DNA from: Isoetes taiwanensis
Taxonomy: Eukaryota; Streptophyta; Lycopodiopsida; Isoetales; Isoetaceae
Reading direction: 5' to 3'
NCBI GenBank assembly: GCA_021234155.1
Contig: JAJEKV010000036.1
Span: 12,289,426 to 12,353,425 of the forward strand
Length of the DNA stretch: 64,000 nt
Of the stretch, positions 1,237 through 27,733 are shown one piece after another; positions within the stretch are counted from its first letter, which is position 1, and each line of letters begins with the position of its first letter. The notes beneath the pieces are model-generated. The model did no database searches, was not told the origin of the DNA, and was given only the letters and a program-made list of their open reading frames with translations. The translations under genes were made by a program, and so were the position numbers.

Positions 1237-2840
1237 TGTGACGCTCCCTGAACATATACGACCCTCGGCCGTATACATACGGGGACTTTTCCCTCCCATG
1301 GCGACCAACTCGCCATGAGCAGGGCCCTCCGTCTATTTCGGGCCATCTATAATATGATGCCCGAAAGAAGGACACGAAGGGGTCATTCGGCCCACGCCTT
1401 CAATGGGGCTCCTACGTCGCGGAAGCGTGAATACAAGGGTTAGCACACAACATAAATCACATATAAATAACCACCACGAAGGGTGGCGCATCCATCCAAA
1501 TACCAACGGCAAAGAATATGCATCTAAACCTAAGAAAACACCCCAAACCCATGGTTCTACCCCGGCTCAGACTCCAGTGAGGATCGACTGACGGCTAGGT
1601 CTCAAGAGATCAGCAGACCGAATCTTGACATGGCGTGGCTGGCATAGAACATTGGCTAGGGTTGTCCACTCCATCCGCCCCTCCTGTGCACACTTTGCAG
1701 ATGGGTCAATTCACGCTATGGCATCGCTATAGCCTTCCGGAGACGCAGGCTCGAGGCATCACCCTGCTGAGCCTACTCCAGGGTTCATGAAGTCCCGGTC
1801 CGATGAGGCAGGTCAGGGAAGCGTCCCCTTCCGAATCCACGGTGGCTCCATGGGCGAGCTAGGGAGAATACGTGCCGCATGGCGACCCCATCCGTGCCTA
1901 ACTTACTGCGCCCTAAATCTACTCAAAGTGCAAGGTGCCCCATCACGGGTCACACCTTCCCACCTGAGGGTCGGACCCATACCCGCCCTCGTGACCCGGC
2001 TATCGAGGTCTAGCTCGCTATAGGAGTCCCGAGGAGCCTTTTATGTTCGGGTGCAAGACTCCACCTCCACTTCACCACTTTGTGTTCCTTGTGCGGTGCT
2101 AAGCCAGTACCATAGCATCTATGACCCGGTGGGCTCTTGTGCACAGGCCGCATTTAACGGGATAATACAGGGCTCTATCTAGGAGCATACTACAATAAAT
2201 AGCCTCAGAGGTCTCTACCCCCCCTTAATTCCCCATTTCCAGAGTAACACTAGGCTAACAACCACCAATCCATCCATTACAAGCAAAACCAGAATCGAAA
2301 TATATAGAGAACCTACCTTTACAATCAAGGGTTAGTTCCTCACAGTAAACGAGAGAGAATAGACCAACAACCCAAATAGGTGCCCGCTATCCTAGAATTC
2401 ACAACTACACTAGCCACCCACCTGTATTTCGGCTCGACCCGTTGTCATTGGGGATCTCCATCTGGTTGGTCTTGGTGTTTAGCTTGTGTGAGATTGTGGT
2501 GGCTTCGGCTCTGGTCACAAGGGTGGGCTCCTTTGCTCAAGGTGAGTTGTGGCTAATATGGGGGTGGTGATCCACCCTATTGACCCCAATTAGCATTATC
2601 ATGCTAACCAATCGAGGGTGGCCACGTGGAAGCTTCCCAAACCATAATTAGATTAATTATGGTTTTTAAATATTAGTTCCTTAATTATAGGTTATTATTG
2701 TCAATAATTAAATTAGCATAGCTAATTTAATCCCTTTTTAAGTGAACCACCTAGGTTCCCATACCCCATGTGGCGTATGTATCCCTGGTGACGTGTCAAC
2801 ATATTTATACTTATACCGTATAAATACTTGGAACGTCACA
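1237..2840 (-). repeat. 3' LTR of the chromovirus
   Basis: 1604 bp, almost the same as 23847-25452. Most differences between the two copies are small changes at CAG, CTG or CCAGG sites. Bounded by GCTGC on the left and the polypurine tract on the right. Confidence 0.93.
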
Positions 2841-3429: not shown

Positions 3430-4815
3430 CTACCCCCCTACTGATTCTCGGCGAATCAAGTCTTCAAGCTTACCGCCGGGAGCGGGGTTGATAGCATCGT
3501 TGATGGTGCGGCCTTGAGATTCGCGCATGAAATCCGGATAGTGCTTCTCAAGATCTGTTTGCATCACCCACGTAGCATCCTCGACTGGCAAGTGTTTCCA
3601 CTTGACCAAGTATTGTAGCATTTGAGTCCTCCTGGTCTGTTTATAAGCTCGATCAAGAAGAGCTTCAGGTACTATCTCTAGCTGCTCCTCTGTCATTTCC
3701 AGGAGGGTTGGGGTTTCCAAAACCTCCTCTGGATCAGGGGTGTGCTGCTTTAGAAGACTCACATGAAAAACCTTGTGGATCTTTAAGCGGGGTGGCAAGT
3801 CCAGGCGATATGCTTGCTCCCCAATACGTTCAGTGATTTTGAACGGTCCAGCCCATCTGGGTGCCAACTTCTTGCAGTTACCAATCTTAAGCTTGGCTTG
3901 TTTTACCTTAATCTTAAGCCAAACCGATTCACCCACCTGGAAGACTCGTGGGGTCCTGTGCTTATCTGCTGCTACACTCTTTTGGCCCATTGCGTGCATT
4001 AGCAAGTAACCACGTACTTCCTCGACCAAAGCTTGCATCTCCGGGAGGAGTTGTTGAGAAACCTCCACTTCGACCGGGGTTGTGCCATGTGTCGAGTAAG
4101 GCATTGATAACCATAATTTATCATGAAAGGAGACATTTTGGAAGACTCTCATTTTTCATCTTTGTTATAGGCAAACTCTACTAGATAAAAATATAGTGAC
4201 CCATTGGGATTGCTTACTCCACACATAACCGTAGCATATCCTCTATGATACGATTAGTGCGCCTTCTGTCGACCATCAATGCGAGGATGATATCGCGGTA
4301 CTCATAGCAAGCTTGGTGCGGATGGTGGTGAAGAAATCCTTCGAAACGACTTACAAATTTGGGATCTCGCATCGGATACAATAACCCGTGGCATTCCGTG
4401 CAATCTGAAGATCTCCTTTGCAAAAAGCAGAGCAGTATCAAAGGCGGTGTCCGTGGTACGACATGGCAAGAAATGAGCCATCTTCGACAATTTGTCGACC
4501 ACTACCATTAACGCATCATATCCACGAAGAGTGCATTGGAAGGCCCACAATGAAATCCATGGTTATCACTTCCCACTTAGCGTTGGGCACATCCAAAGGT
4601 TGCAATTCTCCTGGAGTCCTTAATTGTTCTGCCTTGGTCTGCTGACATAGTTGACACTGCTTAATGTACCTGGCAATGTCCTTCTTCATCGAAGGCCAAA
4701 AATAACTGGAGCGGATTTTAAAGTAGGTCTTCATAAAACCGGCATGTCGGCTATAGGGCTGTTGTAGCGTGTCATGGAGGATTAACTTACGCACCAGGAA
4801 GTATGAGGTACACAC
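3430..4815 (-). pseudogene. Chromovirus integrase with C-terminal chromodomain
   Basis: Integrase end of pol. The N-terminal zinc finger is seen as HAGFMKTY followed by CQLCQQTK. The core follows with MDFIVGLP (first Asp), VVVDKLSKMAHFLPC and VIVSDAR (second Asp). The last 240 codons (4152-3430) are one open frame. They hold the GPY/F module (RWAGPFKI) and, near the end, a chromodomain with YLVKWKHLPVEDATW. Chromodomains of this family bind modified histone H3 tails and steer integration to heterochromatin. Frameshifts near 4300-4550 break the core, so this copy cannot make a full integrase as written. The final 60 residues after the chromodomain look unconserved. Confidence 0.88.
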
Positions 4816-5357: not shown

Positions 5358-6290
5358 CTAGTTTATCCTTATCGGGATCGAGACAGCGTGAGAGCGGGTC
5401 TTTGAGGTTAAAGGCATCTTTAAGCTCTTTGGAAACTTCCACTGAACCTTAGTCTTCCAGTGCTCCATCCAATCCTTTACCTTCTCATGCTTGGTCAGAT
5501 TTGTAAGAGGGACTGCAATCTTTGCAAAATCCTTTACAAATTTTCGGTAATATCCTGCTAGCCCCAAGAAACTTCGGACCTCGGAGACATTTTCTGGAAT
5601 AGGCCATTCCCTTACGGCCTCTATTTTTGCTGGATCTGTAGCAATTCCCTCTGCAGAAATGATATGGCCCAAATAGTCAACCTTTGGAGTGGCAAACTTG
5701 CACTTAGAGAACTTGGCAAAAGCTGATGGCGTCTTAACTTTTGTAGGGCCAATTTAAGATGTTTCTCATGCTCTTCTAGAGTCTTACTGTAGATGAGAAT
5801 GTCGTCAAAGAAAATGACAACAAAATCATCCAAGTATTGTCGGAAAACATCGTTCATTAACCGCATAAACGTTGCGGGGGCATTAGTTAATCCGAAAGGC
5901 ATAACGGTAAACTCATAATGCCCATATCTAGTGCGAAAAGCAGATTTATGGATGTCCTCCTCTTTAATCCTTATCTGATGATATCCGGAGCGAAGGTCAA
6001 TCTTTGAAAAATATTTGGCCCCTTGCAACTGATCCATTAGATCATCTGCTCTCGGCAAAGCATAGCGATTTTTGATGGTATGCTTGTTGAGTTGCCGATA
6101 ATCAATACACATTCTCAAGGAGCCGTCCTTTTTCTTCACAAAAAGAATAGGGGCGCCAAAGGGCGAAACGCTAGGTCGAATAAAACCTAGGTTTAGCAGT
6201 TCTTGAAGTTGTTTCTTAAGCTCTGCCAGCTCTGGAAGACTCATACGGTCTGGGCCTTCTTTGGTGGGTTTAGTACGGCTCTAAAGCTAT
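5358..6290 (-). pseudogene. Chromovirus reverse transcriptase
   Basis: Best preserved part of pol. The 207-codon frame 6244-5621 shows, in order, [46 protein letters not shown] (motif A Asp), [18 protein letters not shown] and the active-site box [12 protein letters not shown]. The thumb and connection follow in another frame (5672-5358) with [18 protein letters not shown]. One frameshift near 5640-5700 separates the two frames. The order and motifs are typical of plant chromoviruses. Confidence 0.9.
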
Positions 6291-8527: not shown

Positions 8528-8869
8528 TTAGCGTGCCCAAGCACGGATAATAGCGGGTTGATAATCCCAAGTGGGGCTAATAATCAGAAGGTTGAAGAGC
8601 CTTCGCAGTGCGTAGAAGATTTGCCAGAGATGATCATTAGCATCCTCAAAAGCTTCATGTGAGGTCATATTCCAATAATCCCAAGTGCGGGAAAGGGTCC
8701 ATTTCAAATCATCGTAAGCTTGCGTTCGAAGGAGAGTAACTATTTCCATCCCCTTGTCGGGATCATAAGGTTGTTCCGGCACCCTAAGCTCCGCTATCTC
8801 ATCGTCAACTTCCCGTTCGGGATACTTTTGTATCGTTCCCCATAGTCTATTCGGGGAGGTCCTGTTCAT
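8528..8869 (-). CDS. Unknown 113-codon ORF upstream of gag
   Basis: Open frame of 113 codons in the sense strand of the chromovirus, about 300 bases before gag. It is acidic at the start (REVDDEIAELRVPE), then rich in W, Y and F in a helical-looking part (TWDYWN, HLWQIFYALRRLF). I do not recognise a family. It may be the 3' exon or last part of the degenerate ORF at 10540-9120, or a remnant of another extra gene. Confidence 0.4.
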   Translation of the reverse strand: MNRTSPNRLWGTIQKYPEREVDDEIAELRVPEQPYDPDKGMEIVTLLRTQAYDDLKWTLSRTWDYWNMTSHEAFEDANDHLWQIFYALRRLFNLLIISPTWDYQPAIIRAWAR

Positions 8870-9119
8870 CTCTCCTTATCCGGAATGTTATCCTATCTTC
8901 GCATACTCATGGCGTTTTCTTACGCAAAGGCGGGAATGAGTATATAATACTAACATTTCCGGGAGGCTTAATAACTTGTCATGGAAGAGGCTTATTCAAA
9001 AATTGTATTGGCATTATGTATTGGGTGATACAATAAAGGGAAATCACATCACAGTAATAACCATTTTTTTTTTAAAACAACAGTGATTTCAAAGGCAAAA
9101 TACATAAGACAATAATTTA

Positions 9120-10540
9120 GGAGCTGAATCCCTCGTCTTCGTCCATTGGCTGAGGAGGTGGACGATAACGCATCAAAGTGGCGCTAGGGCTAGCGAGAAA
9201 GGGCGGCTCGAGCTCTTGCCTCGGTGGTAAGCAAGTAGCCAAAGTATTTGCCACAAAAAGCGCATGTTAGCGCAGCCCGCCATCTCCCAATCTTTGCTAT
9301 AGCCAAATCTCTACGGACGAGTAATAGTGGTGACATGATAATCAATCTTCTTATGGCCCGCTGAAGTAGATATGGCTCGGAGCGCCCACCAAGAAGCTTC
9401 AGAAGATGGCCCTAAATTCTTTGAAAAGAACAGCACCTCTCCTTGGCGGGGCCGAGAGAAAGAATCGGGCCACATGGTTGCCCATGGCCCTAACTTGAGG
9501 GTCGGTGGAGGTCTCAGCTTCCTTCTCCAAGTCGATGGGGAGCTTTTCTTCTTCTTCTTCTTCTCTCTCATCCCTAAGGCTGACCTTGGTGTCCCAAAGG
9601 TCTTCCGCATCTTGATCCCCCTAAGCCCATAGTGATTTGCGAGGCGGATCTCGAAAGAGACCGCGGTCGGGGCGCAAATTGCTCTTCCGGAGGCTGGGGG
9701 TTTCAGCTAGCAAAGTCTTGGGTGGCGACAAAAGAGTCTCAACGGGCTCTTGTTCCTCGGGCCGATATGCCAATAGGCTCTCTACCTGTGTAGGTTGCAC
9801 CACCGGTGTAGTGAAGTCGATGAAGTCATCTTGGCAATATTCCGCCAAGATCATAGAGAACCTCTACTTTCTGCGGCGGACCCAGAAGAACATTATGCGC
9901 CCACATGATATCGTCAAGGATTAGGTACTCTTGGTCATTCAAAGTATGCTGTAGGGGAGAAGGTTTAACCCGCCGGGGTTTGGGGCCTTACGTCGGCGGA
10001 GGAGAGCTTCGTAAGCAAGCTCCTTCCACCTCACAAAATCCTGCTCATCGGCGACCCGTCATCTTACGGGTCGGGGAGGTAGAGGTGTAGAAAGCTCGGC
10101 GGGGATCTCCTCATCCTCTATGTACTGGTCCATAATAATGGCGGTCTTGAATCGAACCTCAAAGCAGGTTTCTCGATCTATTGTGGCAATAGGGAGGTGG
10201 AGTCCCTGTGCCGTCGATGCCCTTGATGGCGTTACGGGCATGATCATCACCCCTAACATCGGTGTAAGGTGTGGAAGTCAAGGTAAAGCTGCTCATCGTC
10301 ATCATTACCAACGCATGCAGGGCACAATCTCCTCTCCATAGAACCGAAGGAAGGCGAGAATAGTGCAGGTGGGCTGCATGTTGGAGATAAGATCTACTGC
10401 TGAGGCGGGTAGGGATGAAGAAGATCAAAGGGAACCGAGGGTCCCAATGCTCTCGATCTACATACCAGCTGCTGCGGGGTTGGGCAAGCCATGAGGAGTG
10501 AAGGCATAAGGAGGAGGAAGAATTTGGAACAAGAAGAAAA
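9120..10540 (-). pseudogene. Degenerate extra ORF of the chromovirus
   Basis: Sense-strand region with coding character in pieces, broken by frameshifts. Readable stretches include CFEVRFKTAIIMDQYIEDEE, DEQDFVRWKELAYEALLRRR, LNDQEYLILDDIMWAHNVLL and a C-terminal YRPPPQPMDEDEGFSS before a stop near 9120. It follows a TATA box and a plant-like leader (10577-10531), so it may have been a separately transcribed gene carried by the element. No family recognised. Confidence 0.4.
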
Positions 10541-10577: not shown

Positions 10578-10833
10578 TTTTGGCACGCGTTTCCCCAAAA
10601 TTATTATTAAAATTATTATTTATTTAATAACATATATATATTTTTTTTCAAAATATATATTTTTTGTATTCTAAAAACCCAAAAATGGGGCTAGTACATC
10701 GATAAATTACAAAATTTATACAACTAGAATCTGGCCTAATCATCTAAGATCCCCTCGGATCCCTTCGTGCCAAGTGAAGGTCCTTGGGCATAATAGTAAC
10801 CCGCCGCATGTATGGCACACAAGTTGGCGTCGC
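10578..10833. other. AT-rich spacer between ORF1 and the next ORF
   Basis: A/T runs with TATATATAT at about 10630-10640 and no coding potential. It could hold the 3' end of ORF1 and the upstream part of the promoter at 10577. Confidence 0.4.
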
Positions 10834-11229
10834 TCAAAGCTCAATCGGGTATGCCTCGGCAGACCTCTTGTAATGCAAGGACCTTAAAGGCTTGAAACCG
10901 CCAAGTCGGTCTTGAATTCTGGCGATCTCCGACGAAGTCATTTGGAAGGGAAGCCGACGGATCAATGGCTCGGTAGTCTTCTGATACTTGCGTATCTCCC
11001 GAAGAGCTACCGTGCCTGGTCGAAACCTATGGGGCTTCCGCGGCTTAAGAGTCGCCTTGAGCGACGGAATGGATTTACCTCCTGTCGAAGGATGCTTTGT
11101 GCGCTCCACGATCAACTCCCTTCTCTGAGCCGAGGTCTTCTTGGCGATCGTAGCATCCTGTTGCAATCGGGTCTTGTAGTTCACCCCACCCCTAACCGGT
11201 CTAGATTTGGTCCTTTTCAGTCTCCGGTT
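10834..11229 (-). CDS. Histone H3-like C-terminus of chromovirus ORF1
   Basis: Second part of ORF1, cut from its start (23131-22290) by the nested Tat-like element. After removing that element and one CGGTT copy the two parts join in frame; the H3-like part then covers about codons 321-410. From 11106 it reads RTK, STGGK, then [19 protein letters not shown] and LIRRLPFQ, and ends AEAYPIEL before a stop. In the 33 residues from the KPH region to LPFQ, 29 match plant H3. The N-tail is shortened and the residue matching K9 is Pro. Helices alphaN, alpha1 and part of alpha2 are represented, but alpha1/alpha2 are diverged and alpha3 is missing. Phe in RFRPG is the plant H3.1-type residue. Upstream are basic residues ([14 protein letters not shown]). 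A complete nucleosomal histone is unlikely; a chromatin-binding or tail-mimic role is an inference. Confidence 0.85.
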
Positions 11230-11804
11230 TGTTTGGGGTCTGGGTTCGGGAACTCCTGGAAGACAGCCCTCTGTGAGGACCCGTGGATCTAACAGGAGAG
11301 TCCGGGGGACTATGTCACGCGGGATTTGCTGAAAGAGAAGAAAAAGAAGAGAACAGAACAAAAGATGATAAGCTTCCTTGATATCAATGATGAAAATACA
11401 TGAGCTCTCGCAATAGAGAGAAAACTGAAAGGAGACAAGACTCAAAACTCATCTAAAAACTTATGAGCTAACTCTACTCATATATATAGTACAATGGCCT
11501 TGGGCCCAATATAGACACTCTGGTGATCTCGGTGCCGACTCACGGAAGGAGGGCGATTCTGAGGAATGTTGGCGGTGCCTCTTGAAGTGCCTAGAATCAC
11601 TTGGCCGACGCGGGCGGTGACGGGCCATCACTTGTCTGAGCGGGCGCCTCTTGTTGATGACCAAAGGCTTTGATTGCGTGGCTTCTTTGCTTAGTCTTCG
11701 TGGAGGCTTGGATGTCGACCCGTGGTTGGCCCGAGGATCTTTGAGCTTGACCTGGTCCGATGTATGCATGAATAGTCCTGTACTGGGAGGCCGCGGGACT
11801 AACA
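11230..11804 (-). repeat. 3' LTR of Tat-like copy 1
   Basis: 575 bp, same family as 21707-22289, 38797-39385 and 61576-62154. Contains the conserved TATATATA region (11480-11490) and ends against CGGTT. Confidence 0.92.
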
Positions 11805-11815
11805 CTCCCCCCACC
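11805..11815 (-). other. Polypurine tract of Tat-like copy 1
   Basis: Minus-strand GGTGGGGGGAG directly before the LTR start TGTTAG. Copy 2 has GGTGGGGAG at the same place. Confidence 0.8.
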
Positions 11816-11904
11816 AATCGACACTCGTGAGTGAAGAAAAGGAGGAAGCGTTTGGGGGGAAGCCATCGGTCTGAAAATGATCCTCACGGAGTGAGGACGG
11901 GCAC

Positions 11905-14777
11905 CATTATGGTAATCGGGCTGATGAGATCTTGGCGTGATTGAAGAGCTTGAGGTGTGTTTTGGCCAAAGGCGGGATCAGCATCAATAAGAAAACGAGG
12001 CGCACCATGTCTTCAAGTGCGGCGTGGGCGTCAAGAAATGTAATCGACACTCCATGAGGAGACAGTCCCAAGGCCAAAGGCACCGACACCGCATTGGGAT
12101 TGCAAGTGAAAAATGGGGTATTTGCCGATTTAAGGAGCTTAGCAAAATGCATTTGAGGGCAGCTTGAGAATCCCGCTTGAAGATGGATGAAGGATCGGGG
12201 GAGGTGGAGGCGCGCAAGAAGGTGGTGAGACCATGAAGCGCATCCGCTGGCTGTTGCCAACCACGCCATTAGCAATGTAGATCCAATTGGTGGTGTTGTC
12301 CAAAGTAGCACCTTCTTCCCAATGTGATCGGGCGAACAAAAGCGTGGATCCCACCGGAGATCCGTCGAGATCCGAGGTGGTGTCCGGCCGCATGACCATC
12401 CATGACCTTGGTCCAAAAAGGAAGGCATGTCCAATCAGAAGGAACACAGGCGTGGAGGTACATGAGGGAAGCATAGGGAGAAGGGACCATGCCCGTAGGG
12501 TGGGGTTCCGAGCGATCTCCACAATTGATCGACAAGATCCGGATCAAGTGCGACACCGGCCGATCCCAAAGAGAAGCGAGAGTCGAGAGTTGACAGGAGG
12601 GCTATCCCATCCGTGGGGACCGTCTTGCTATCCAAAAGAGCACAGAATCGATTGTAACCAGCGAGGTGTCGCGCATATAGACTTGTGCATAGGGAAGATC
12701 TTGGGATGTCCCGGATACTTCCTAATTTGTTGCGGCCTTCCTTAAACCCGAGAGATAAATGATTGGCAAGCTCGGGCATGTACTCGATGAAAAGTTTTGG
12801 TCGGCGGGGATCCCCAAGATATGGATTGTTATCTGAAGCACCCATTGCTTTGATGGGGTCACCACGAAAAAGGCTGGCGTGGCCCATTGCCAAAAGTTTT
12901 CCCTGTGTATCACCCAGATAGAAATCATGAAAGATATAAGCCATGGGCTGAACCACGCGGAAAGTGAGAAAGTCTGGATCGGCACAGTGTATGAGATCAA
13001 AGACAACAAGGGCACAACACAACCCTTTGTCTTCAATGGAGAGTTCCGGCCAAATCCGAGAAAAATCAGCACTGCTCAGTGGGATATCCACAGGGCCATC
13101 AGCTGCGTGCCACTTTGAAAGGAAGAGGTGGCGTCGAGCAACCACATAATCATGATAGCAGGAGGGAGCTGGGAAGTCACCGGCGTGCGTGAAGAATGGA
13201 AGTGCAGGCGTCAAGTTTGGCGTGAGCCTCATAGCCAGTTGAATAGCTTCTTTGCAGTTTGTTGTTCGAGAGATCACGGATCCTATTTTCCTTTTCGAGG
13301 AGGAGGCGTGACTCGGGTCCACGGACCCGTTTCGAGAAGGATTGACACTGGGAGGAAGATTTCCCTGTGTATTGAGGCGGCCACGGCAATCTCAAAAGCG
13401 TCATCGAGTATTTTCTCGTTTCTCGCACCCTCGTAAGTGATCTTGAAGAGAGGTGGCGGGAGAGGTACGTGTAGAAAGCTGAGCCGTCAAGGAGGCGACT
13501 TGAGCGTCAGGGCTGAAAGATTTTTGAACTTGAGTGCTGAAATTTTCACGATTCCGAAAGTACAAGGCATTGAGTTTAGCAATATCTTCGCCCTTGGTAC
13601 TTTTCGGGAGAGGCGGCTTTGGACTTGTTGTGCTCCAATAGAGTCTGAATTTTCGTGCGAGCTGAGCCTCTTGATCCGCAAGTTGGCTGACTTGAGCTTG
13701 TGTACTCTTGAGATCCGCATGAGCCTGTAGGAGAGCTTCATGCTTGTCTTGAAGTTTGGCCTCAAAGTGGCAACTTGGGCGATTGCGGCTTTGAAGGTCT
13801 TGGTGTCTTGCATCGAGGAGGCCTCGAGTGCGTTGAACCCCGCTCATAAAGGCGTCTTGAGATTCCTGTAACTTAAGTGCAGCAGCTTGAGCATCCTGGC
13901 GATCTTGATACAACAATTGCCGAGGGTGTTGTGGTGGTGGAACCGGGCTGTTGCACTGGTGTGGGAGGTTTGGGAAAAATGATGTGAAGTGGATGGTGTA
14001 GCCCGAGGAAGAGGCGGTGACATGAGTGTGACTGTGGTCATGACCGAGGGAAGATGGGCGTGATGTGCCAACTTGGTGATTATTTGGAAGGGGGCCGAGT
14101 GGAAGTATGAGAATTTGGTGGTGTGGGAGGAAGTAATGACGGATGAGGGCTTGAAAGTGCCCTCCCCACAGTAAAAGCAGAAATGGAAGTGGTACCCCGG
14201 CGGTCCATTTCTTGGAGAAGACGATAGAACATCATTTGGGGCCAATCGATGTGGTGCTTGGGTGTGTAGCAGTAAGGACCAGGTTATAGAAAGGCTTATT
14301 GATATGGGTGTTCTTGATAGAATACCCCAGGAATTTGCGCCACAAAAATTTCACAAAGGTCTCATGAGGCTTGTCGATATTGGTCAGACGATGGACATTG
14401 GCGTGATAAGCAGGTGCGCCAAACTCTGTGACATCAATATCCTGTATAGCAGACCATGATACACAAGGAGTGTGCAAGGGAATATGAAATACCTCAGAAA
14501 TCAAATGTTGAGTCAATGAAATAGTGGTGCCATCGACCACAGTGGTGTAACCTTGCGGGCTGTTAACAATATTGGCGATGAAGCTGCACAGAATCGGGCA
14601 GGATTTGGAGCCGGAAGTTCCATTTGAGAGAATTCATTAAAAGCCGGTGTCGTTCGACTTCTTTTTGGGGCCAACAAGGGCTTCACGGAAAGTGGGCGTC
14701 AAGAAGGATACAGATGCAAAAAGGGCCGGATCCTTGGGAGCAGTAGCTTGAAGTGTAGAAAATCTTGGGGCAGCCAT
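11905..14777 (-). pseudogene. Long extra sense ORF of Tat-like copy 1
   Basis: About 950 codons of former coding sequence between integrase and the 3' LTR. Start chosen at 14777 (MAAPRF), because copy 2 also begins MAAP at 58556. Parts in order: an N-terminal domain with DGTTISLTQHLISEVFHIPL and ANVHRLTNIDKPHETFVKFL, which resembles domains found in plant transposon-associated proteins; a Pro/His-rich stretch; a Gln/Leu-rich coiled coil (13916-13400, KLQESQDAF, QAHADLKSTQAQVSQLADQE); and a C-terminal domain in the 295-codon frame 13322-12435 that continues frameshifted to about 11905. The same order is found in copy 2, so it belongs to the family and is not a chance insertion. Function unknown. 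It may be structural or chromatin-related; no membrane segment typical of an envelope protein was noticed. Confidence 0.7.
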
Positions 14778-15242
14778 GGGAATGATTTGCAGAACGAAGA
14801 GAGATGCCAAAGGCGGAAGACGAAAGTCGAGCACGGAGGATGAAGGCGCAGAGGAACGAAAAGGTTTGTTTTAGGGCGCACAACTGGAGGCGAAGAGGTA
14901 TGAAGAGTGCGCGAAACAGAACCGTGGATGATGCCGGTGTCAAGAGATGCGAAGAAGGGGATTGAGAGGCAAAAATTTGGCTAAGTCCCCAAAAACGTAA
15001 GGGAGAAGCAATGGACGGTGAGGATGAGACGTGAAAGAAAGATCGGATGTGACAGATGGCAAAGGACACCCATTAATGTTCGACGGGCGTGGAAAGAAGG
15101 AATGGCATTCAATGCGGCAACTTCGAAGTGGGATATCATTAAAAGGAATGTGTCAAGGTACCATTGCTAGATATGCGGCGGGAATCGTGATTCTCCTTTT
15201 AGAAACAATTTTGCATTGCAAAACCACGTTGGCGATTTATGT

Positions 15243-15288
15243 GATTGGTCCACGCCGACAAAGGAGGTCCTCGGTTGGCTATATAAGG
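15243..15288 (+). promoter_or_regulatory. Antisense CCAAT/TATA promoter in Tat-like copy 1
   Basis: Plus-strand GATTGGTC (inverted CCAAT, 15243-15250) is followed 30 bases later by TATATAAGG (15280-15288). The pair and its spacing are kept in copy 2 (58098-58055, minus strand). It points away from the sense ORF and towards the small antisense ORF. Confidence 0.55.
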
Positions 15289-15355
15289 CGAACCGAGAGA
15301 AACGAAGGCATCCGATGGCGCTTCGGTATGGCTGCTGCTTTGGTTTGAACGAAGA

Positions 15356-15607
15356 TTGCACCATGCCCATTTAACTGCCGAGTGGATCACTTGTAAGATG
15401 AACTATGCGGATCTCGGGCGCTGCCACAACCGTGGCATTCGGATGGGCGGCTGGTGTGCGGGATGGCTGAACATCCCGACCAAGACCAACGGGATGGAGG
15501 TGGTTCTGCACCTTCGGGATCCGGGCGAGAACCTCTACCATCTCTCTCGCATCACCTCTGCTCCGAACCCGAGTAGAGGGTTTTTCCTCTTAGGACTTAG
15601 TAGATAG
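15356..15607 (+). CDS. Small antisense ORF of Tat-like copy 1
   Basis: 83 codons on the strand opposite to gag-pol, about 70 bases after the TATA box. It reads HLTAEWITCKM, then GRCHNRGIRMGGWCAGWLN and TNGMEVVLHLRD. Copy 2 has the same gene at 57994-57736, with matching EWITCKM, RCHNRGI, GWCAG and TNGMEV blocks split over two frames. It contains conserved Cys and His residues. No family recognised. Antisense ORFs between pol and the 3' LTR are known in some Tat-lineage elements such as maize Grande; homology to those was not tested. Confidence 0.5.
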   Translation: MHHAHLTAEWITCKMNYADLGRCHNRGIRMGGWCAGWLNIPTKTNGMEVVLHLRDPGENLYHLSRITSAPNPSRGFFLLGLSR

Positions 15608-15739
15608 GGCTCGAGCCCGTTTTTTATATATAGGCGAGTGCCCATAGCGGAAATAGCTGGCTGCGCCCACATTTTGTAAAAAATCTCCACTATAATATAA
15701 TCTACCGCCTTTCTAGTCACTTTACGTGGTGTTTGATCT

Positions 15740-16970
15740 CGAACTGTCTACGTGTTGGAATGTTCACTTTACGTGTCTTTGAAATGCTTTGAGGCGAAAA
15801 CCATTAACTAATGTAGGTAATGGAGTGCCATCTAATTCAGCAAGTTGGAAAACACTTGGTCTAACCACTTGAACAATTTGATAAGGGCCAAAGCCAACGA
15901 AACTTGAGTTTACCGGAAAATTTTTGTACTGGAATCATAAAGAAGAACCAAATCTCCTTGTTTGAATGTTTTTGTCTTCAAGCGTTTGTCATGTAAAGAT
16001 TTTTGCAAACTGTTGTCCATGAAGAACACGAATATAAGCATCCCTGAAGTTCATCCAAGCTGTTCTAATTGATAGACCCGTTCTTTGAGAGCATTTGGTG
16101 GATTATGAGCGGTAGCTAATTGAAAACGGAGTGTTGGAAGGATGAATTCAAAGGGCATGAGAGCTTCGACCATAAACCAATTTAAAAGGAGTGTGACCGT
16201 AGCAATCTTGAAACAAGTATTGTAGGCCCAAAGAACACGAGGGAAGTTTTATGCGCCAACTCGTGCGGGAAGCGTCACAAATTTTCTTGAGAATGGTGAC
16301 CAGAGTTTTGTTGGTGCTACGCGCCAACCCATTGCCTTGAGGATAGTAAGGTGTGCTCTTGTGATGATGTATCGGGGAGATAATCCGTCCAGCTCTTTGA
16401 TAGTATGATTGATGAAATGAACACCACGGTCCACCAGCTCAGCCCGCGGGGGCAGCCGAATCAAGCGTGATGATTTGTTGATAGAGGACTCGGCCGTGCT
16501 TGCAGCGGTGTTGTGCGAAGTGCACAAGCTTCCGCCCATTTGGTGGCGTAGTCGGTGAGAACGAGAATGTATCGGGCACGAAGTGTGCCGCGAGCAGAGG
16601 GTCTATAGGTCCCACAAAGTCCATTCCCCATTTTTGAAGGGAAGTGGCGCGGGCGATCGGCGTCAAGGGAAGAGCTGCCACGGGCGTGGGGCGCCCCACC
16701 CGCTGGCAAAGCGTCACACGCGTCTGGGCGTGGGCGTGAGCATCTTTGAAGAGCGTGGGCCAATAATACCCTGCGAGAAGGATTTTGCGTGCCGTGGTGT
16801 CACCATGAAAATGACCACCACCCAGAGCCCTTGATGAGCTTCTCGAACAATGTCCGGAACTTCATGAGGTAGAACACGGCGTCGGAAGGATGGTGTCCTT
16901 ACCCTTTTGTAGAGATGTCCGGCAACCATGGTGTAGTCACGGACCTCTCTCGGAGAAATTGATGGCGACA
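15740..16970 (-). pseudogene. Integrase of Tat-like copy 1
   Basis: Degraded integrase. Readable sense blocks are an HH-CC finger remnant (HEVPDIVREAHQG), MDFVGPIDP (first Asp), YATKWAEACAL and DRGVHFINHTIKELDG (second Asp). The C-terminal part (16240-15740) matches the clean copy at 57100-57560, including the GPY/F module, but is out of frame. There is no chromodomain, unlike the outer element. Confidence 0.8.
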
Positions 16971-17089
16971 GGATTGTCGCCTTGGCGAGGAAAGGCGTCT
17001 CATCTTACGGTGGAAGAGCACGTGAGGAGGTGCCGCTGAAAATCATGGAACCAATGTGGTGTTGCCGTGACTAAAAAGTTGAGCATCGG

Positions 17090-17740
17090 GGAAGGCGTCC
17101 CGAGACCCCCTGTTGCGGGATCATCCGTGTGGATCGTGAAAGATAATCCGGAACAACATGAGATTTGCCAGCCTTATGAATGATTTCAAAAGGAGCAAAT
17201 TCTTGGAGAAGAAGGACCCAACGAGCAATGCGGCCCGTGGGCGTGGATTTGTTGATCAAATAGAGAAGTGCTTGGTGGTCCACAAAGAACTTGATTTGAC
17301 TGCCCAAAAGGTAATGGCAGGCGTTGGACACGAGAAAAATGAGACCCAAAGCTTCACGCGCTCAGGTAAGCGAGAATAGTTGCGCGCCAGCGAATTGAGT
17401 TTTAATTTGGCGTAGCGATTTGGTTTATCGATCAAGCGCATCATATTCTTGAGAGAGAACAGCTCAATAGCAAACGCCGAGACATCGACATGAGCGTGAA
17501 AGGGCTTGTCCCATTGAGGAGGAACAAGAACTGGTGCACGAGTAAGCAAAAGCTTCATTTGTTGGAAAGCGACTTCCGCTGGGAATTCCAAGCCCGGTGG
17601 ATTAAATCACCCGTGAGTTTATGAATGGGATGCGCAATGGCTGCCGGTCCAGGTATGAAGGTGGAGTAATAATTGACCTTTCCGGGAAAGAGCGTGTCTC
17701 TTTGATATTGGCTGGTGCTTGAGCTTTGAGCACACAAGCC
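17090..17740 (-). pseudogene. RNase H of Tat-like copy 1
   Basis: Connection and RNase H region. PVLVPPQWDKPFHAHVDVSA gives the first catalytic Asp. IKFFVDHQALLYLINKS, RIARWVLLLQEFAPFEIIHK and HVVPDYLSRS form the rest. This copy is uninterrupted here and shows the empty site of the CACTA insertion found in copy 2 (between WVLLLQ and EFAPFE). Confidence 0.85.
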
Positions 17741-17769
17741 GATTTTGGCGGGATCGGTGGTGATTCTCG

Positions 17770-18560
17770 CTTTGGCGACAACATGGCCTAACAGAACACA
17801 CGAAGTGGCCTAAAAAGGTGCATTTTCGGGATTGAGACTAATGCCGGACTCATCACATTTCTGGAAGGCGAGTTCCAATTTATCCAAATGGTCAGCCATG
17901 GTAATCAGAGGCGAGAAGTCATCTTGAAAAATTTGCAAGAAGGGATTTTCCTTCATGAAATCATGAAAAGCGAGAGCATGATGCGTTGAAATGTTGAAGG
18001 AGAGTTGGATAATCCAAAAGGAACCACCTTGTAGGCAAAAGTGCCCTTGCAGGGGTGGTGAAAGTGGTTTTGAGTTGATCAGATTCTTTGATGGAGATCG
18101 ATTGTAGCGGAAGAAACCATCCATAAAGGAGTACATCTCATGTCCGCCACTTCTTCCGAACTTGGTGCGTGAAGGGAAGTGGAAAATGATCACGCTCCGT
18201 GGCGATTGAGTTTCCGATAGTCTACACGGACGCGGATCTTACCATTGTGCTTAAGGGCAATGGCGATAGGGCTCACCCATTCGGAATGTTTGACCTCATA
18301 GATCAAACTGCGGCAAAAGGAGTTTGTCAATTTCGCCTTGACGAGCGATCCGCGGTAATTAGGGTTGAGCACATGCATCGCCGTTGCTACAGTCGGGTGC
18401 ATCGATTTGGTAGGAATGGTGAGTTCCCCAAGCTTTTGTTGATGCCCGAAGATCTTTGTAACTCGGCGAAAATGTGTTTGAATTTTTTGAACAGCGTGGC
18501 GGCCTGATACGATAAGGGCCGGAAGGTTTGCGGCAATCTTGACGAGGTTGATTGTTGCCA
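17770..18560 (-). pseudogene. Reverse transcriptase of Tat-like copy 1
   Basis: Frameshifted RT. Blocks in order: LIYEVKHSEWVSPIAIALKH, NGKIRVRVDYRKLNRH, a YSFMDGF block (motif A), and FLQIFQDDFS, which is the active-site box with FQDD in place of the usual YVDD. A gap of several frames lies around 18000-18100. The same FQDD is present in copy 2, so it is a family feature. Confidence 0.82.
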
Positions 18561-18899
18561 ACATCCACGATCTCGACCCGGAGTCCGAATATGGGGTATG
18601 ACTTGATTATCTGGACAATGTGTGCGGGGAGGTTGGAGCATATAACGGATCGCGTGGCACTGCTGCGTGGTGAAAAGAGAGGTTGCTCGGTTTCATCTAG
18701 CGGTGGTTGCTTCATGGACGGCGTGTACATCAGCGGGGAGTTGCGAAGTGTCGACATCGGAAAAGTGATCACGCAGCGTTGGATTCGATTGCAAGGAGCG
18801 GTAGGGGTCAAGCAAAGGCGCCACGGCTGGTCCCGATCAAGAGTCATTTCTCCCCAAGGATCAGCATATTCGGGTAGGTAGGGCGGGCGAGGCGGACCC

Positions 18900-19560
18900 G
18901 GTGGAGCCCTGAACTTGATAAATATTCGAGCTTCTTGAGAATCGGTCACCGAGAGAGAGGGTTCCGCATTGTCAACGAAATGATCCCCGCTTTGTTTGCA
19001 AGTCCATGGTGGCATTGAGATGACCATCGTGATGACTAAGCGGTCCGTGGCCCAATAATGGATACTTTGCCCTGGCGGAGAAAGGGTCTTCCCACCAGCA
19101 TTTCATAGTCACCTGGATCTTCGCCAGCTTTCCAAACTCCAAATTCCATGGGAAAGCGGAGATCACCAATGTTGATGTGAAGAATAGGTGTGACGCCTTG
19201 AGGTCTCGTGATATGGCCATTAGCCAATTTGATGTCATATGGGGCTCGAAAGAGTTGTGTGATGCCCATTTGTTTGCGGAGTTTATCCGTGATGAGATTG
19301 ACTGCACTACCTCCATCGATTTGAACATGGTTGACTTGCTGATTTCCCACCGTTGCATGGACCGTGGGTGTAGAGGTATACAGCCCCAACTAAAAGCGGT
19401 TGGGAGGGGTAACTGGTCCTTGAGAGCGGGGACGAGTTTTAAAATGGTAGCCAAGCTTAAAGGAATTTTGATCTTGGCAAGCTCCTCTTGGAGTTCAAGA
19501 GGTACATGAGAAAAAGGATCTGCGGGTTCCACGGGTGCGGGAGTGCGTGGCAGGGAAGCA
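18900..19560 (-). pseudogene. Protease of Tat-like copy 1
   Basis: Retropepsin-like domain with VNHVQIDGGSAVNLI as the active-site block (DGGS instead of DTG/DSG), LANGHITRPQGV, and the closing block YEMLVGRPFL. DGGS is common in the Tat/Athila group. An upstream linker holds a repeated PLELQEELAKIKIPLSL segment. Confidence 0.8.
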
Positions 19561-21670
19561 GCAACTTCTTTGAGTAAGTCAACCTCGGCTGCAATATTGG
19601 GATATGTCTGAGAGCGTGGAGGTTGAGATGTTGAAGGTGTATCTTGTCTTTGTTGAGCTCTAGTGGTGGCATGAACATTTGCCAATGTGCGGCCTTCAGC
19701 AGCTTGCATGAGATTCAAAATGCTTTGGCGAACTTTGGGCATGACATTTGGCATGAGCTTTTCTAAGTCAGGTGCAAAGTGAACCTTTTTTTCGTCCTCA
19801 TGAGGAAGGGTGTCAATGGCAAAGGCAGGTTGCGTGTCCTTCTGAATAATAGTCAAGGGACGTGATGCCTTGGTCTGGCGTGAAACTAGACCAACCCAAT
19901 TTGACGGTTGTACGGGAGGATTAAGGGCCTGAAAAATTTCCTCTTGGGCTTGTTGATCCAGCTGAGGTTGATTTGCTGGAGCTGGTTGATAGCGTGATTG
20001 CTGAGGCGCTCTTGGGGGCTTCTTGAGAACTGGTCGCGGGCCTTGTTTGCCATTAGCTAGCCAGAGTTGGTAAGCCGTGAGGCGGACCGATGTGGTCCGA
20101 TTGGTACCGTGAAGCCGCACACAAACACGTGGAAGTTGAGGGCACGCCGTGGTGGTATGACCCCATTCTTGGCGGTGATAGCACGAGCTTTAGAAGGATC
20201 AAAAAGGAGGGCGTTGGTTGGATCCCCGTGGTTGGTCTGATTGTCGATAGAGTTGCGTGGGCTGCACGAAGAGGTGGTCAGCGATAGTGCGTTTGGGGAC
20301 CGAGGTGTGGTTTGTACTTGATAAACCATTTTGTTCTGAACGGTGTGGGATGAGTGCGAGTGCACTCTTCCGTGGCATGATTGCACATGTTGCATCGCTT
20401 GCAATGAGGCGAGACCATTGGTGGAGTTGCACTCATTGGCCAAATGGCCTTGATATTTACAAATATGGCACCAGATTTGACCGCTTATTTGTGGATTAGC
20501 GTGTTGAGGCTGAAACACCCGTTTGTGGAACCATGACGGGTGGAATGAGCGGGAGCTCTTGAAGAGCCACGCCCGGGAGGAAACATTGACAGAGTGATTG
20601 ACAAGGTCGATAGCCTGCTCCAAAGTTTTTGGGCGGTATTGATCATGAGTCGAATAGCGGGAGGAAGTCCTTGGAGAAACCGGACCAAAAATCGGCTCGT
20701 GTAGGGTACTCCTTGAGCTTACTTTAGCGAATGTGAAGTCGATCCATAAAATCCGGGCGCAGACTCCGTGGGCTCTTGTTGAAGTTCATTGAGTTGCTTG
20801 AGATGAAGTTGATCATCATCCGTGGTCCCGTAATGAGAGAGAAAAGCAGTGCGCATTTCGGACCAGTCTTGTTTCCAATGGCTTTTGTTGGACATGAGCC
20901 ATTGATGAGGAGAGCCACGCAGTGTGGTGGAAAAGATGTGAAATTTCAGTTGAGGTTGCGCGTGCCCATTTAGGACAGCTAGAGCCTCAAATTCTTCCAT
21001 GTGGGCCTGAGCACTTTGGTCTAGCGGTTTGCCTTTCGTGTTGCCAAAGGTGGGATAAGTCAGTTTCAAAGTCTGAAAGGTAGATGTGAAAGTGCTGGGC
21101 TGGACAGGAACAGGATAGTGAGGATATTGAGGTTGAGGTGGATTTGGCATTGTGCCTGACGGACCCTGATGAAGGGGTGACTGCGGTTGAGAAACTGAAG
21201 TAGCCGGAGCATTGGTTTTGAGATCTGTAAGGTTGTAAACAGGAAGAGCAGTGGGAAACGTAGGGAAAGGATATTCCGGGCGGTATAAAGGAGACATGTG
21301 GATAGCCGTGCCCACCCGGGAGAGGATGGTTATGGCGAAGAGGCGTATGGCCTGGAAGAATGATGGATGTAGGCATGTTCGGGGGTATGAAAGTACTGGG
21401 TTGAGAAGGTTGAGCCGGATAAGGCTCCCCGATAGTGATGAGGGGACCGAGGTTGTGAGCAATGTTTGCACGCTTGGGGAACCGGGACGATCGACCGCGG
21501 GGTGGGTGGCGCTGGGGCCCGAGCCCTAGACCGAAGATGGCCTCCCTCTATGTCATAAGCAGATCCATACATGTCGCGAATGGGGTTTCGACGCCGATGG
21601 CTCCTGCCGAGATGCCGCCCGAGAAAGGAGTTCTTCCGGGCGTGGAAATTACTTGGATGCATATGGCTAC
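19560..21670 (-). pseudogene. gag of Tat-like copy 1
   Basis: Same protein as 39433-41040 of copy 2 with more frameshifts. The best stretch (21471-20719) has LKLTYPTFGNTKGKPLDQSA, HMEEFEALAVLNGHAQPQ, SPHQWLMSNKSHWKQDWSEM and FLSHYGTTDDDQLHLKQL, the capsid core. A CCHC knuckle (CHICKYQGHLANEC) is readable at about 20470-20420; the others are out of frame. The frame 20120-18972 carries the C-terminal Gln/Pro-rich linker into protease. Confidence 0.82.
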
Positions 21671-21684
21671 GTAAGAAAGTAGGA

Positions 21685-21706
21685 GAAAATCCGGACCGGG
21701 CGGCGT
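21685..21706 (-). other. Primer binding site of Tat-like copy 1
   Basis: Sense reading after the LTR is ACGCCGCCCGGTCCGG. It resembles a damaged form of the TGGCGCCGTTG-type site for tRNA-Asp used by many Tat/Athila elements. The match is imperfect and the exact tRNA is uncertain. Confidence 0.4.
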
Positions 21707-22289
21707 TGTTTGGGGGTCCGGGTTCGAACTCCCCGAAGACAGCCTCTCTGGAGGACCCGTGGATCTAACGGGGAGAGTCCAGGGGACTATGTCACGCCGG
21801 GATTTGCCGAAAGAGAAGAAAAGAAGAGAACGTAGAACAAAAAGATGATAAGCTTCCTTGATATCAATGATGAAAATACATGAGCTCTCGCAATAGAGAA
21901 AAAACTGAAAGGAGACAAGACTCAAAACTCATCTAAAACTTATGAGCTAACTCTACTCATATATATAGTACAATGGCCTTGGGCCCAATATAGACACTCA
22001 TTGCGGTGCCGACTCACGGAAGGAGGCCCGATTGGTGTGAATGTTGGCGGTGCCTCTTGAAGTGCCTAGAATCACGCGCCGACGCTGACGCTGGTGGCGG
22101 TGGGCGGGCCGTCACTTGTCGAGCGGGCGCCTCTTGTTGACAGACCAAAGGCTTTATTGCGTGGCTTTCGGCCGCTTAGTCTTACGTGGAGGCTTGGATG
22201 TCTGACCCGTGGTTGACTGAGGATCTTTGAGCTTGACCTGGTCTGATGTATGCATGAATAGTCCTGTACCAGGAGGCACAGGACTAACA
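21707..22289 (-). repeat. 5' LTR of Tat-like copy 1
   Basis: 583 bp, starting TGTTAGTCCTGTGCC in the sense direction next to CGGTT. TATATATA near 21960 marks the core promoter. Confidence 0.92.
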
Positions 22290-23131
22290 CGGTTACCCGG
22301 CCCGGTCGGCTGCTGTGGGTTGGCGGCTTGGTTTACATCAACAGGGTTTGTCTGGGATTCGACGTTCGGAGCCGCACCTAGGTCCTGCTGTCTATCATCA
22401 AAATTCTGCTGCTGCTCCTCCTGCTGATGGCCTAGCTGCTCCTCCTGCTCGTGCTCACTTTGCTGGCCATGGGAGTCTTCGCCTTCCTTTAGGAGCCGCT
22501 CTCATTCTTCAGCCCTAGCCTCTCTCTCCAAACGCACTTGAGTACGCCGGCCAATCTCAGTATGACACCGGTCTAGCCGTGCCCGCATATCTTCTTGGAT
22601 GGATTCTAGATGGCACTGTTGAAACCGGGGCGGGACATTTTCAAAAATGAAACTATTGAGGCTTTCATTCCAAGAAAAGGTGGGAAGGTTAAAGTATTCC
22701 TGGTAGGTAAGTACACGACCCCTCCCCAAATAGTAAAAGCGATCCATCCTTAGGTCCGGTGGAGCGCTGGCTATTTGGTGCAAGTCTTCTAGTCGGGCCA
22801 GATGCATGATCCTCTGAGCTTCGTTCCGACTAAGCTCCACAGGGTCTTCATCTGGTCCTGGCGAGGAATAAAACTTAACCACAGCCCATGCACGGTCCGA
22901 CTGCTCCACGAGAGTGTAATCCTGACCGGCTTCATTCAACTTGAGGAGGAAGCGCTCGTTGAAGTGGAAGATAGGGTAGGGGACTCGTCGGCCCTCGACA
23001 AAGTGCTTGACAAAAAAGTTAAGAATGGTATCTATCATAGGGTCTTCCTCAACAAGATGCTCAACTAAGACAGCAAACAACTGATATATATTCAGTTTCT
23101 TCAGATCTACGGTCAGCTTGAAGCGCGGCAT
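22290..23131 (-). CDS. N-terminal part of chromovirus ORF1 (H3-fusion ORF)
   Basis: Starts at the ATG at 23131, the first long ORF after the 5' LTR and leader. 209 open codons: MPRFKLTVDLKKLNIYQLF, then two acidic/aromatic blocks (DYTLVEQSDRAWAVVKFYSS and GRGRVLTYQEYFNLPTFSW), then a charged helix (MRARLDRCHTEIGRR, VRLEREARAEE). An in-frame TGA at 22504-22502 follows, which may be a C-to-T change of CGA since the helix would continue with R and E. Seventy further open codons are Gln/Glu-rich (HEQEEQLGHQQEEQQQ) and reach the nested insertion. Past it the frame continues to the H3-like end. I recognise no family for the first 209 residues. The position would suit a gag-like or nucleic-acid-binding protein, but the normal gag lies near the protease. 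Confidence 0.7.
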
Positions 23132-23833
23132 GTCGTACTTTATAGGGACAACAAGGGAGAAAGGAGAAAGGAGGCTTCAGCAAAGGCGGGGACGGATCTG
23201 CTGAAGGGGTAATCGAGGGCACCGGGGTGTAGGGCAGGTGCAAAGGAAGACGTCGAGGTCGGCTATGGCGGATGTGGAGCTTAGGTCCGTGGCTATGGCG
23301 AAAAAAGGCGCTCAAAAGAAAACACGCCTTAAAAAGACACTTCAAAATTCAATTTTAACTTTTGACTTTTTATTAAAAATTTAAAAAAAATTTTTTTTTA
23401 AAAAAAAAATTTCAAGCAGTAGCAGTATAAAATCGCCAGCGGCAGAGTATGGGGGGGGCCGGCGTGTTTATACGCGTTTTATTTTCAAAAAGAAACACCC
23501 TCGGATACCTCAAGTAGCTTTTTTTTTTTTTTTTTTTGACTGTTATGTTTTTTGCCTCGGGAGACGTGCCCCCTAGGGTATTTGAGAGGTGCCCGATCCA
23601 TTGGAGCCGTTTTCGCCTTCATCCGAGCTACCTACAAAAAGATGGCTCCTCGAAACTTGGGTCCTCCAGGCGGCCTAGACTTCCTTAGAATTTACAGTCT
23701 GTTACCTTAACCTAGCACTAAATCAAACATGAAAGACTTAAACAATCACTCTTGCTTAAACTCTCTCTCCTAACTACCGAACTAGCGAGTTAGGGTTTGG
23801 TCAGTGCTATGATTTCGAGTAACCGAAATCACG
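23132..23833 (-). other. Leader of the chromovirus
   Basis: About 700 bases between primer binding site and ORF1, with poly(A)/poly(T) runs (23380-23410 and 23519-23537). No ORF of note. Confidence 0.5.
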
Positions 23834-23845
23834 GCTCTGATACCA
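23834..23845 (-). other. Primer binding site, initiator tRNA-Met
   Basis: Minus-strand TGGTATCAGAGC, one base after the 5' LTR. This is the exact 12-base complement of the 3' end of plant initiator tRNA-Met and fixes the orientation. Confidence 0.92.
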
Positions 23846-23846
23846 C

Positions 23847-25452
23847 TGTGACGCTCCCTGAACATATACGACCCTCGGCCGTATACATACGGGGACTTTC
23901 CCCTCCCATGGCGACCAACTCGCCATGAGCAGGGCCCTCCGTCTATTTCGGGCCATCTATAATATGATGCCCGAAAAGAAGGTTTCTGAAGGGGTCATTC
24001 GGCCCACGCCTTCAATGGGGCTCCTACGTCGCGGAAGCGTGAATACAAGGGTTAGCACACAGCATAAATCACATATAAATAACCACCACGAAGGGTGGCG
24101 CATCCATCCAAATACCAACGGCAAAGAATATGCATCTAAACCTAAGAAAACACCCCAAACCCATGGTTCTACCCCGGCTCAGACTCCAGTGAGGATCGAC
24201 TGACGGCTAGGTCTCAAGAGATCAGCAGACCGAATCTTGACATGGCGTTGGCTGGCATAGAACATTGGCTAGGGTTGTCCACTCCATCCGCCCCTCCTGT
24301 GCACACTTTGCAGATGGGTCAATTCACGCTATGGCGTCGCTATAGCCTTCCGGAGACGCAGGCTCGAGGCATCACCCTGCTGAGCCTACTCCAGGGTTCA
24401 TGAAGTCCCGGTCCGATGAGGCAGGTCAGGGAAGCGTCCCCTTCCAGAATCACAGTGGCTCCATGGGCGAGCTAGAGAATACGTGCCGCATCAGCGACCC
24501 CCGCATCCGTACCCGACTTACTCGCCCTAAATCTACTCAAAGTGCAAGGTGCCCCATACGGTTCACACCTTCCCATCCAGGGAGTGTCAGACCCATACCC
24601 GGCCCTCTACGTGACCGGCTATCAGGTCTAGCTCGCTATAGGAGTCCCAGGAGCCTTTTATGTTCGTGCAAGACTCCATCTCCACTTCACCACTGTGTTC
24701 CTTGTCTGGTGCTAAGCCAGTACCATAGCATCTATGACCCGGTGGGCTCTTGTGCATAGGCCGCATTTAACGGGATAATACAGGGCTCTATCTAGGAGCA
24801 TACTACAATAAATAGCCTCAGAGGTCTCTACCCCCCTTAATTCCCCATTTCCAGAGTAACACTAGGCTAACAACCACCAATCCATCCATTACAAGCAAAA
24901 CCAGAATCGAAATATATAGAGAACCTATCTTTACAATCAAGGGTTAGTTCCTACGAGTAAACACAGAGAGAATAGACCAACAACCCAAACAGGTGCCCGC
25001 TATCCTAGAATTCACAACTACACTAGCCACCCACCGTATTTGGCCGACCCGTTGTCATTGGGGATCTCCATGCTTGGTCTTGGTGTTTAGCTTGTGTGAG
25101 ATTCGTGGTGGTGGCTCAGCTCTGGTCACAAGGGTGGCGCTCCACTGCTCAAGGTGAGTTGTGGCTGATATGGGGGTGGTGATCCACCCTATTGACCCCA
25201 ATTAGCATTATCATGCTAACCAATCGAGGGTGGCCACGTGGCGCCTTCCCAAACCATAATTAGATTAGTTATGGTTTTTAAATATTAGTTCCTTAATTAT
25301 AGGTTATTATTGTCAATAATTAAATTAGCATAGCTAATTTAATCCCTTTTTAAGTGAACCACCTAGGTTCCCATACCCCATGTGGCGTATGTATCCCTGG
25401 TGACGTGTCAACATATTTATACTTATACCGTATAAATACTTGGAACGTCACA
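23847..25452 (-). repeat. 5' LTR of the chromovirus
   Basis: 1606 bp, pair of 1237-2840. Flanked by GCTGC at 25453-25457. Confidence 0.93.
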
Positions 25453-25472
25453 GCTGCGGACAGCATCATTTC

Positions 25473-27545: not shown

Positions 27546-27733
27546 ATGATCCCAAACAATCTTTGCTATGCAAAAGGTGCTCTTGACTTCCAATTGCCAC
27601 AACGGAAGGAGAATAGATCCAAAATCCTGTCCGTCAGTTCCTATTGCTTCGCCTCTTCAACTGCAACTTCTCGACCACTTCCCAAGTGCAAATGTCAAAA
27701 ACTCGACCTCCATAATGTAAACCATTCAATAAC

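Follow-up and report, generated by a model that had tools for sequence, protein, structure and literature searches.

A histone H3 captured by a Ty3/gypsy chromovirus clade of Isoetes taiwanensis, fused to its first open reading frame and under purifying selection

Captured genes and histones in mobile elements and viruses

LTR elements with extra ORFs or captured host domains are already known, and histones have been described in cells and in some DNA viruses. Published accounts provide several points of comparison. Orchid Gypsy elements are large plant Ty3/gypsy elements (25 kb, compared with Ogre) in which a captured host regulatory gene, a 2-ODD (ALKBH-like) m6A demethylase encoded in a separate ORF, is kept over many copies (PMC9289625). 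Tat/Ogre/Retand elements also bear extra ORFs besides gag-pol (PMC7264820, PMC11963269), and the word 'histone' has 0 occurrences in the available portions of these two main texts. Among viruses, the extended N-terminal tail of the bracovirus histone CpBV-H4 changes host gene expression after joining nucleosomes (PMC5423620), and NCLDV encode histones (PMC9145170).

The elements described here, from the lycophyte Isoetes taiwanensis, resemble the orchid elements in having captured a host gene that is kept over many copies. However, the captured sequence is a histone H3 rather than an RNA demethylase, it is fused to an element protein rather than encoded separately, and the elements carry a chromodomain, which is a reader of histone marks. 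With plant chromoviruses they share the RT, the chromodomain and the LTR/PBS/TSD structure, but in this clade of ~13-kb elements pol is preceded by two additions, ORF0-H3 and a further extra ORF. The position of ORF0-H3 between PBS and pol recalls the extra ORF ahead of gag-pol in Tat/Ogre elements; to our knowledge, however, Tat elements have no integrase chromodomain, whereas the H3-bearing element has one. As with CpBV-H4 and the NCLDV histones, a selfish element carries a core histone, although those belong to DNA viruses and this one to an LTR retrotransposon. No retroelement-encoded histone was found in the literature searched, from which preprints and most subscription papers are absent. 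The word 'histone' has 0 occurrences in the available main text of the Isoetes genome paper (PMC8566536), and the available text of a review of viral histones has 'retrotransposon' 0 times and 'transposable' once (PMC9145170).

The interrupted chromovirus of the window

The window, meaning the whole stretch of 64,000 nucleotides analysed here, contains an outer LTR element of ~13 kb on the minus strand (1237-25452), delimited by paired LTRs with TG..CA ends and split by a nested element. Its 3' LTR (1237..2840, TGTGACG...CGTCACA) has 95.5% BLAST identity to the 5' LTR with which it pairs (23847..25452), with 3.8% mismatches between the two, and the TSD GCTGC is present on both flanks (1232-1236 and 25453-25457). 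The primer-binding site TGGTATCAGAGC (23834..23845) begins one base past the 5' LTR and is followed by a leader that extends to ORF0 (23132..23833). Further along the same strand lie the reverse transcriptase (5621..6280, PF00078) and the C-terminal part of the integrase with a chromodomain (3430..4155; PF24626 and PF00385 Chromo, above cut-off). An RVT_1 reverse transcriptase, an integrase with chromodomain, paired LTRs, a 5-bp TSD and a PBS identify the element as a Ty3/gypsy chromovirus. As to gag, the piece 7217-7600 gave no match in Pfam, and a zinc-knuckle-like stretch near 7 kb was seen by eye only. The window RT is 51-73% identical to named plant matches. Its closest database protein, P0125, comes from JGI and lies on a contig of 1088 bp; it shows 89% identity across 85% of the query, so that a close relative of the outer element may occur in a metagenome. 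Further pieces of the window matched nothing in the viral contigs searched.

The original prediction placed an H3-like domain at 10834-11229 on the minus strand, and profile and structure searches agree with it: the piece matches PF00125 Histone above cut-off (37.1 bits, E 4.3e-9) and, among PDB entries, plant H3.1 (E 1.1e-15). A frameshift-tolerant alignment to plant H3 scored 293, against at most 43 in 20 base-shuffles, and the H3 likeness is thus far beyond chance. In this alignment 84 of 128 residues equal plant H3, with six frameshifts, all in the C-terminal half. The sequence AEAYPIEL, which had been read as the diverged end of the H3, is not its end, since the H3 runs on through the six frameshifts to ~10740. 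The stretch 11038..11229 (minus strand), which is in frame with ORF0, encodes a basic linker and a derived H3 tail, and the decayed H3 core, from KPHRF to the stop, occupies 10740..11037 (minus strand).

The domain had also been thought to lie in a single open frame of a chromovirus, fused to an element protein. The chromovirus is confirmed, but the frame in question (10834-11448) begins inside the LTR of the nested element, so that its N-terminal part is accidental and is not the partner of the H3. This nested LTR element (11.1 kb, 11230..22289, minus strand) splits the ORF0-H3 frame; it has LTRs at 11230-11804 and 21706-22289 on the same strand, the TSD CGGTT at 11225-11229 and 22290-22294, and a gag-like domain at 20719-21525 (PF03732, minus strand). 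Its LTR pair differs by 13.1%, compared with the 3.8% of the outer pair, which at face value would make the nested element the older of the two. Location of the H3 within an ORF of the nested element is ruled out, because the nested LTR ends at 11230 with a matching TSD. When the nested element is removed and one TSD is kept, ORF0 reads from 23131 in frame into the H3. The fusion itself therefore stands, with a different partner: ORF0 at 22295..23131 (minus strand), which supplies the opening 279 codons of the ORF0-H3 protein (MPRFKL...). In the window, the copy is disrupted by a TGA at 22502-22504 in ORF0, by the nested insertion and by the H3 frameshifts; uninterrupted copies exist elsewhere. 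Between the H3 and gag/pol (approximately 8600..10480, minus strand) lie the decayed remains of a second extra ORF, which belongs to no known family. The element can be reconstructed in the order 5' LTR, PBS, ORF0-H3, second ORF, gag/pol with chromodomain and 3' LTR.

Elsewhere in the window, a second copy of the nested LTR element lies on the opposite strand (38796-62155) and is split by tandem repeats (44329-53860) whose unit of ~1118 bp recurs about 8.5 times at ~90% likeness. Another tandem array, with a period of 19 bp, is found at 27095-27588.

Copies, histone core and selection

Copies were sought in one Isoetes taiwanensis assembly of 1,658,258,908 bases in 1110 contigs. The genome paper gives 1658.30 Mb in 204 scaffolds and 909 contigs (1113 sequences) for an assembly that combined Illumina, nanopore and Bionano data and was polished with Pilon (PMC8566536). 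Searches with the H3 segment and with ORF0 gave 40 scored matches of 693 candidates and 40 of 364 (39 besides the window), respectively, and 49 non-window copies were fetched, 39 chosen by H3 and 10 by ORF0 alone, the latter absent from the H3 list. ORF0 adjoins H3 in all 49, including all ten picked by ORF0 alone, and none lacks the H3. Furthermore, the copies confirm the fusion without any joining; in locus L013, for example, position 2395 is the last of ORF0 and 2396 the first of the H3 segment. The LTR end was matched in 45 of the 49 copies, the leader in 47 and the region following the H3 in 47, and some of the missing matches may reflect the limits of the fetched stretches. One copy, L021, is rearranged, with a duplicated and inverted ORF0 piece upstream of a normal ORF0-H3. 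Of the 49 copies, 24 yielded an ATG when searched for the start motif and were translated from it; five of these stay open over 442 aa, as far as the stop of a full-length H3. No open reading was observed in the other 44 copies, of which 19 were among those translated. When one ORF0-H3 product was used as a protein query against its own genome, 109 rows were obtained from 95 scored of 12071 first-look candidates, at identities of 100 to 60%, and 26 of them, counting the place of the query itself, extend over residues 1-442 with no intervening stop.

The ORF0-H3 protein (400-452 aa) comprises a conserved N-terminal region of ~220 aa with many invariant residues in the copy alignment, a Q/D-rich linker of variable length, a basic segment with the derived tail, and the H3 core. 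ORF0 matched nothing above cut-off in Pfam and NCBIfam, and its profile reached a best E of 0.026 against the PDB. No homologue reached E <= 0.001 in a set of 1238 proteins that shared words with it and had a matching length, none was found in the viral contigs and prokaryote genomes searched, and the best 120 of 386 H3-bearing proteins (213-679 aa) gave nothing better than E 0.72. A single-sequence structure model of ORF0 has a pLDDT of 38 and was set aside. The second extra ORF is open from stop to stop over 453-470 aa in L024 (3167-4525), L038 (486-1895) and L042 (518-1897); the L038 product has no Pfam or NCBIfam match and that of L024 no Pfam match.

Uninterrupted copies encode a full-length histone fold: the product follows PF00125 to the end of the profile in two of them (E 3.2e-42) and matches H3.3 at E 3.8e-49 in one. 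A canonical H3 query gave 150 scored matches of 9022 candidates, of which 15 are host-like genes at 96-98% identity that contain no stops, and the other 135 are places at 71-86%. Six of the 135 (L074-L079) were fetched and form group B, which is marked by F54, T86, F87, A107, 'DLALARR' and P at the last position. Stops occur upstream of the core within the fetched stretch in L074-L078, and for L079 the listed length of the surrounding frame is 567 aa, so that the evidence for open group B fusions comes from one copy and from listed frame lengths. In this group B copy (L079, L080, L081), the start of ORF0 is homologous to that of a group A ORF0 (36% over 66 aa, E 3e-14), the LTR end (90% over 294 columns) and PBS of the window element are present, and an RT 93% like that of the window lies 4.5 kb downstream of the H3. 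The RT is found ~4.5 kb downstream of the H3 in L024, L031, L038 and L042 as well (compared by eye). As the RT is 93-97% like that of the window in the compared copies of both groups and ORF0 is very different, the 5' module either evolves fast or was exchanged.

A tree of 19 cores (arbitrary root, 4 of 16 inner branches starred) separates host (100/99), group A (98/98) and group B (98/96) sequences. F87 and A107 occur in all 16 element cores sampled and in none of the three host cores, and their presence in both groups suggests, but does not prove, that a single capture may underlie the two. The ten group A, six group B and three host H3s are identical at 71 of 99 core positions. Host H3 has E77, Y41 and L90 in 3/3 cores; the element cores have L90 in 16/16 and E77 in 11/16, and the common L90 and E77 fit capture from the host lineage. 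CENH3 (CENP-A) has a diverged core and a longer loop 1. The element H3 is like it in having a divergent tail on an H3 core, but the element core is of host length and identical to host canonical H3 at 79-88 of 99 positions, and CENH3 identity is ruled out by this host-length core without loop insertion.

Among the positions that we take to contact DNA or to form the H3-H3' face, R40, R42, R49, R63, R69, R72, R83, K115, R116, T118, K122, H113, D123, L126 and I130 are invariant in all 16 element cores. The remaining two are changed, C110 to Y in one element core and K64 to R or Q in group A. The ARKS motif of K9 and K27 is absent from the tail of all ten group A proteins, all of which have R at position 36, before KPHR, and nine of which keep TGGKS. 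The basic segment has 19-21 K/R against 2-5 D/E in 66 residues. The tails of group B are known only in part.

Copies lacking the H3, or its neutral decay in all copies, had been named with the original prediction as outcomes that would refute it, and neither was seen. Pooled pN/pS was 0.18 for ORF0, 0.17 for linker and tail and 0.07 for the H3 core in five gap-free copies, and 0.27, 0.25 and 0.07, respectively, in ten uninterrupted, more diverged group A copies. The bootstrap 95% interval of the core was 0.042-0.109 in group A (10 cores); in group B (6 cores) the core had a pN/pS of 0.04 (0.007-0.081), and three host H3 genes gave 0.087. Shifted-frame controls of the five copies gave 1.4-1.8 for ORF0 and linker and 2.1 and 10.4 for the core; those of the core in the larger sets gave 2.4 and 4.7 in group A (10) and 2.8 and 5.1 in group B (6). 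Across the 14 core pairs printed for the ten-copy set, dS ranged from 0.34 to saturation (above 0.95 or saturated in 11) and dN from 0.022 to 0.059, and a Fisher test of five chosen pairs gave p 9.5e-12 to 4.2e-28. The group A copies were chosen for open frames and are thus a biased sample from which dead copies were removed; this choice would not by itself give a pN/pS of 0.07, and the reading as purifying selection stands. Thus the predicted capture of an H3 coding sequence, with its fusion to an element protein, is upheld by the adjacency of ORF0 and H3 in every fetched copy and by strong purifying selection, and the fusion is widespread.

Possible roles of the fused H3

In this clade of Ty3/gypsy chromoviruses, an H3 captured from the host now forms the C-terminal part of the first ORF. 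The favoured role, to which we give an even chance, is anti-silencing of the element's own chromatin. The ORF0-H3 protein would enter the nucleus, pair with host H4 via the preserved interface, be handled, position 87 being altered, by H3-H4 chaperones, and go into nucleosomes or an (H3-H4)2-like complex, with the ORF0 part supplying targeting. Nucleosomes of this kind could not bear the main repressive marks, because ARKS is missing from the tail at both K9 and K27 and position 36 is R. The conserved H4 and H3' faces and DNA contacts speak for a working histone fold, and the loss of K9, K27 and K36 together with the changes at 86-87 argues for altered marking and chaperone choice; a nucleosome-level role in anti-silencing is favoured by this combination. 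The stronger form of the proposal, drawn from sequence, is that the elements supply their own nucleosome subunit, an H3 variant on element chromatin that could not be methylated at K9, K27 or K36 and would be host-proof against silencing by histone methylation. We hold this form tentatively, at rather less than an even chance. Against the favoured role, the same constraint would arise if the H3 fold served cDNA packaging or integration targeting, and the 280-aa N-terminal addition may hinder nucleosome entry. VANDALs are DNA transposons. Their VANCs are sequence-specific anti-silencing proteins (PMC10398659, PMC5735166), and ORF0-H3 would have the same kind of role if it counters silencing, although VANCs are not histones.

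It is possible, if on the unlikely side, that the fused H3 acts with H4 as a tether, bringing the pre-integration complex to chromatin or to replication-fork H3-H4 chaperones and sharing target choice with the integrase chromodomain. Such a role is consistent with the preserved H3-H4 and chaperone surfaces, the chromodomain in the same element and the place of ORF0-H3 as first ORF on the same strand, but the fusion partner is ORF0 and not the integrase. An unlikely alternative is a structural one, whereby ORF0-H3 condenses the RNA or cDNA, either in particles or inside the nucleus, a role also envisaged for the histones of some DNA viruses. The basic segment and the retained DNA-contact residues would suit condensation; simple condensation, however, needs neither the H3-H4 nor the H3-H3' face, and H3 without H4 is known to wrap no DNA. 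We consider it distinctly improbable that the protein works outside nucleosomes as a decoy, titrating host H4, chaperones or H3 methyltransferases and so weakening silencing generally. The derived tail without K9, K27 and K36 and the altered 86-87 region could be read in this way, yet the DNA-contact residues are conserved, and a decoy could do without them.

Sequence error also bears on these data. Differences between LTR pairs and between satellite units are clustered with small compensating indels (variance/mean 1.6-5.1). They rise with local GC in both inner-element LTR pairs and in two of seven satellite pairs, with no significant trend in the outer LTR pair (p 0.15) or in the other five satellite pairs. 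In the neighbourhood of CpG, both gaps (0.0149 against 0.0097 per site) and transversions (0.060 against 0.033) are more frequent. These bursts look like residual sequencing (nanopore consensus) error, although this is not proven, and such probable assembly errors would inflate the apparent divergence, frameshifts and decay. That the joined frame and the open copies are themselves an assembly artefact is very improbable: small compensating indels do separate the copies in bursts, a pattern of nanopore assemblies with poor polishing, but ORF0 and H3 adjoin at dozens of independent places, residues are conserved, constraint is codon-specific, and errors break frames rather than create them. A one-off transduced host pseudogene without function, as the frameshifted and interrupted window copy might suggest, has a negligible probability and is refuted by the other copies, all 49 of those fetched having the H3 and many listed places being open, and by their constraint.

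Anti-silencing of element chromatin thus remains the favoured role. The H3 is kept under purifying selection in both groups, through synonymous divergence that becomes saturated, and the scored places with element-like identity number 135, with first-look candidates in the thousands; the clade must therefore gain from it. The elements seem to make their own chromatin building block, a natural and long-evolved H3 variant with a replaced tail that offers material for finding which H3 residues matter. A direct test thereby becomes possible of the idea that changes to the nucleosome itself can serve transposons against silencing.
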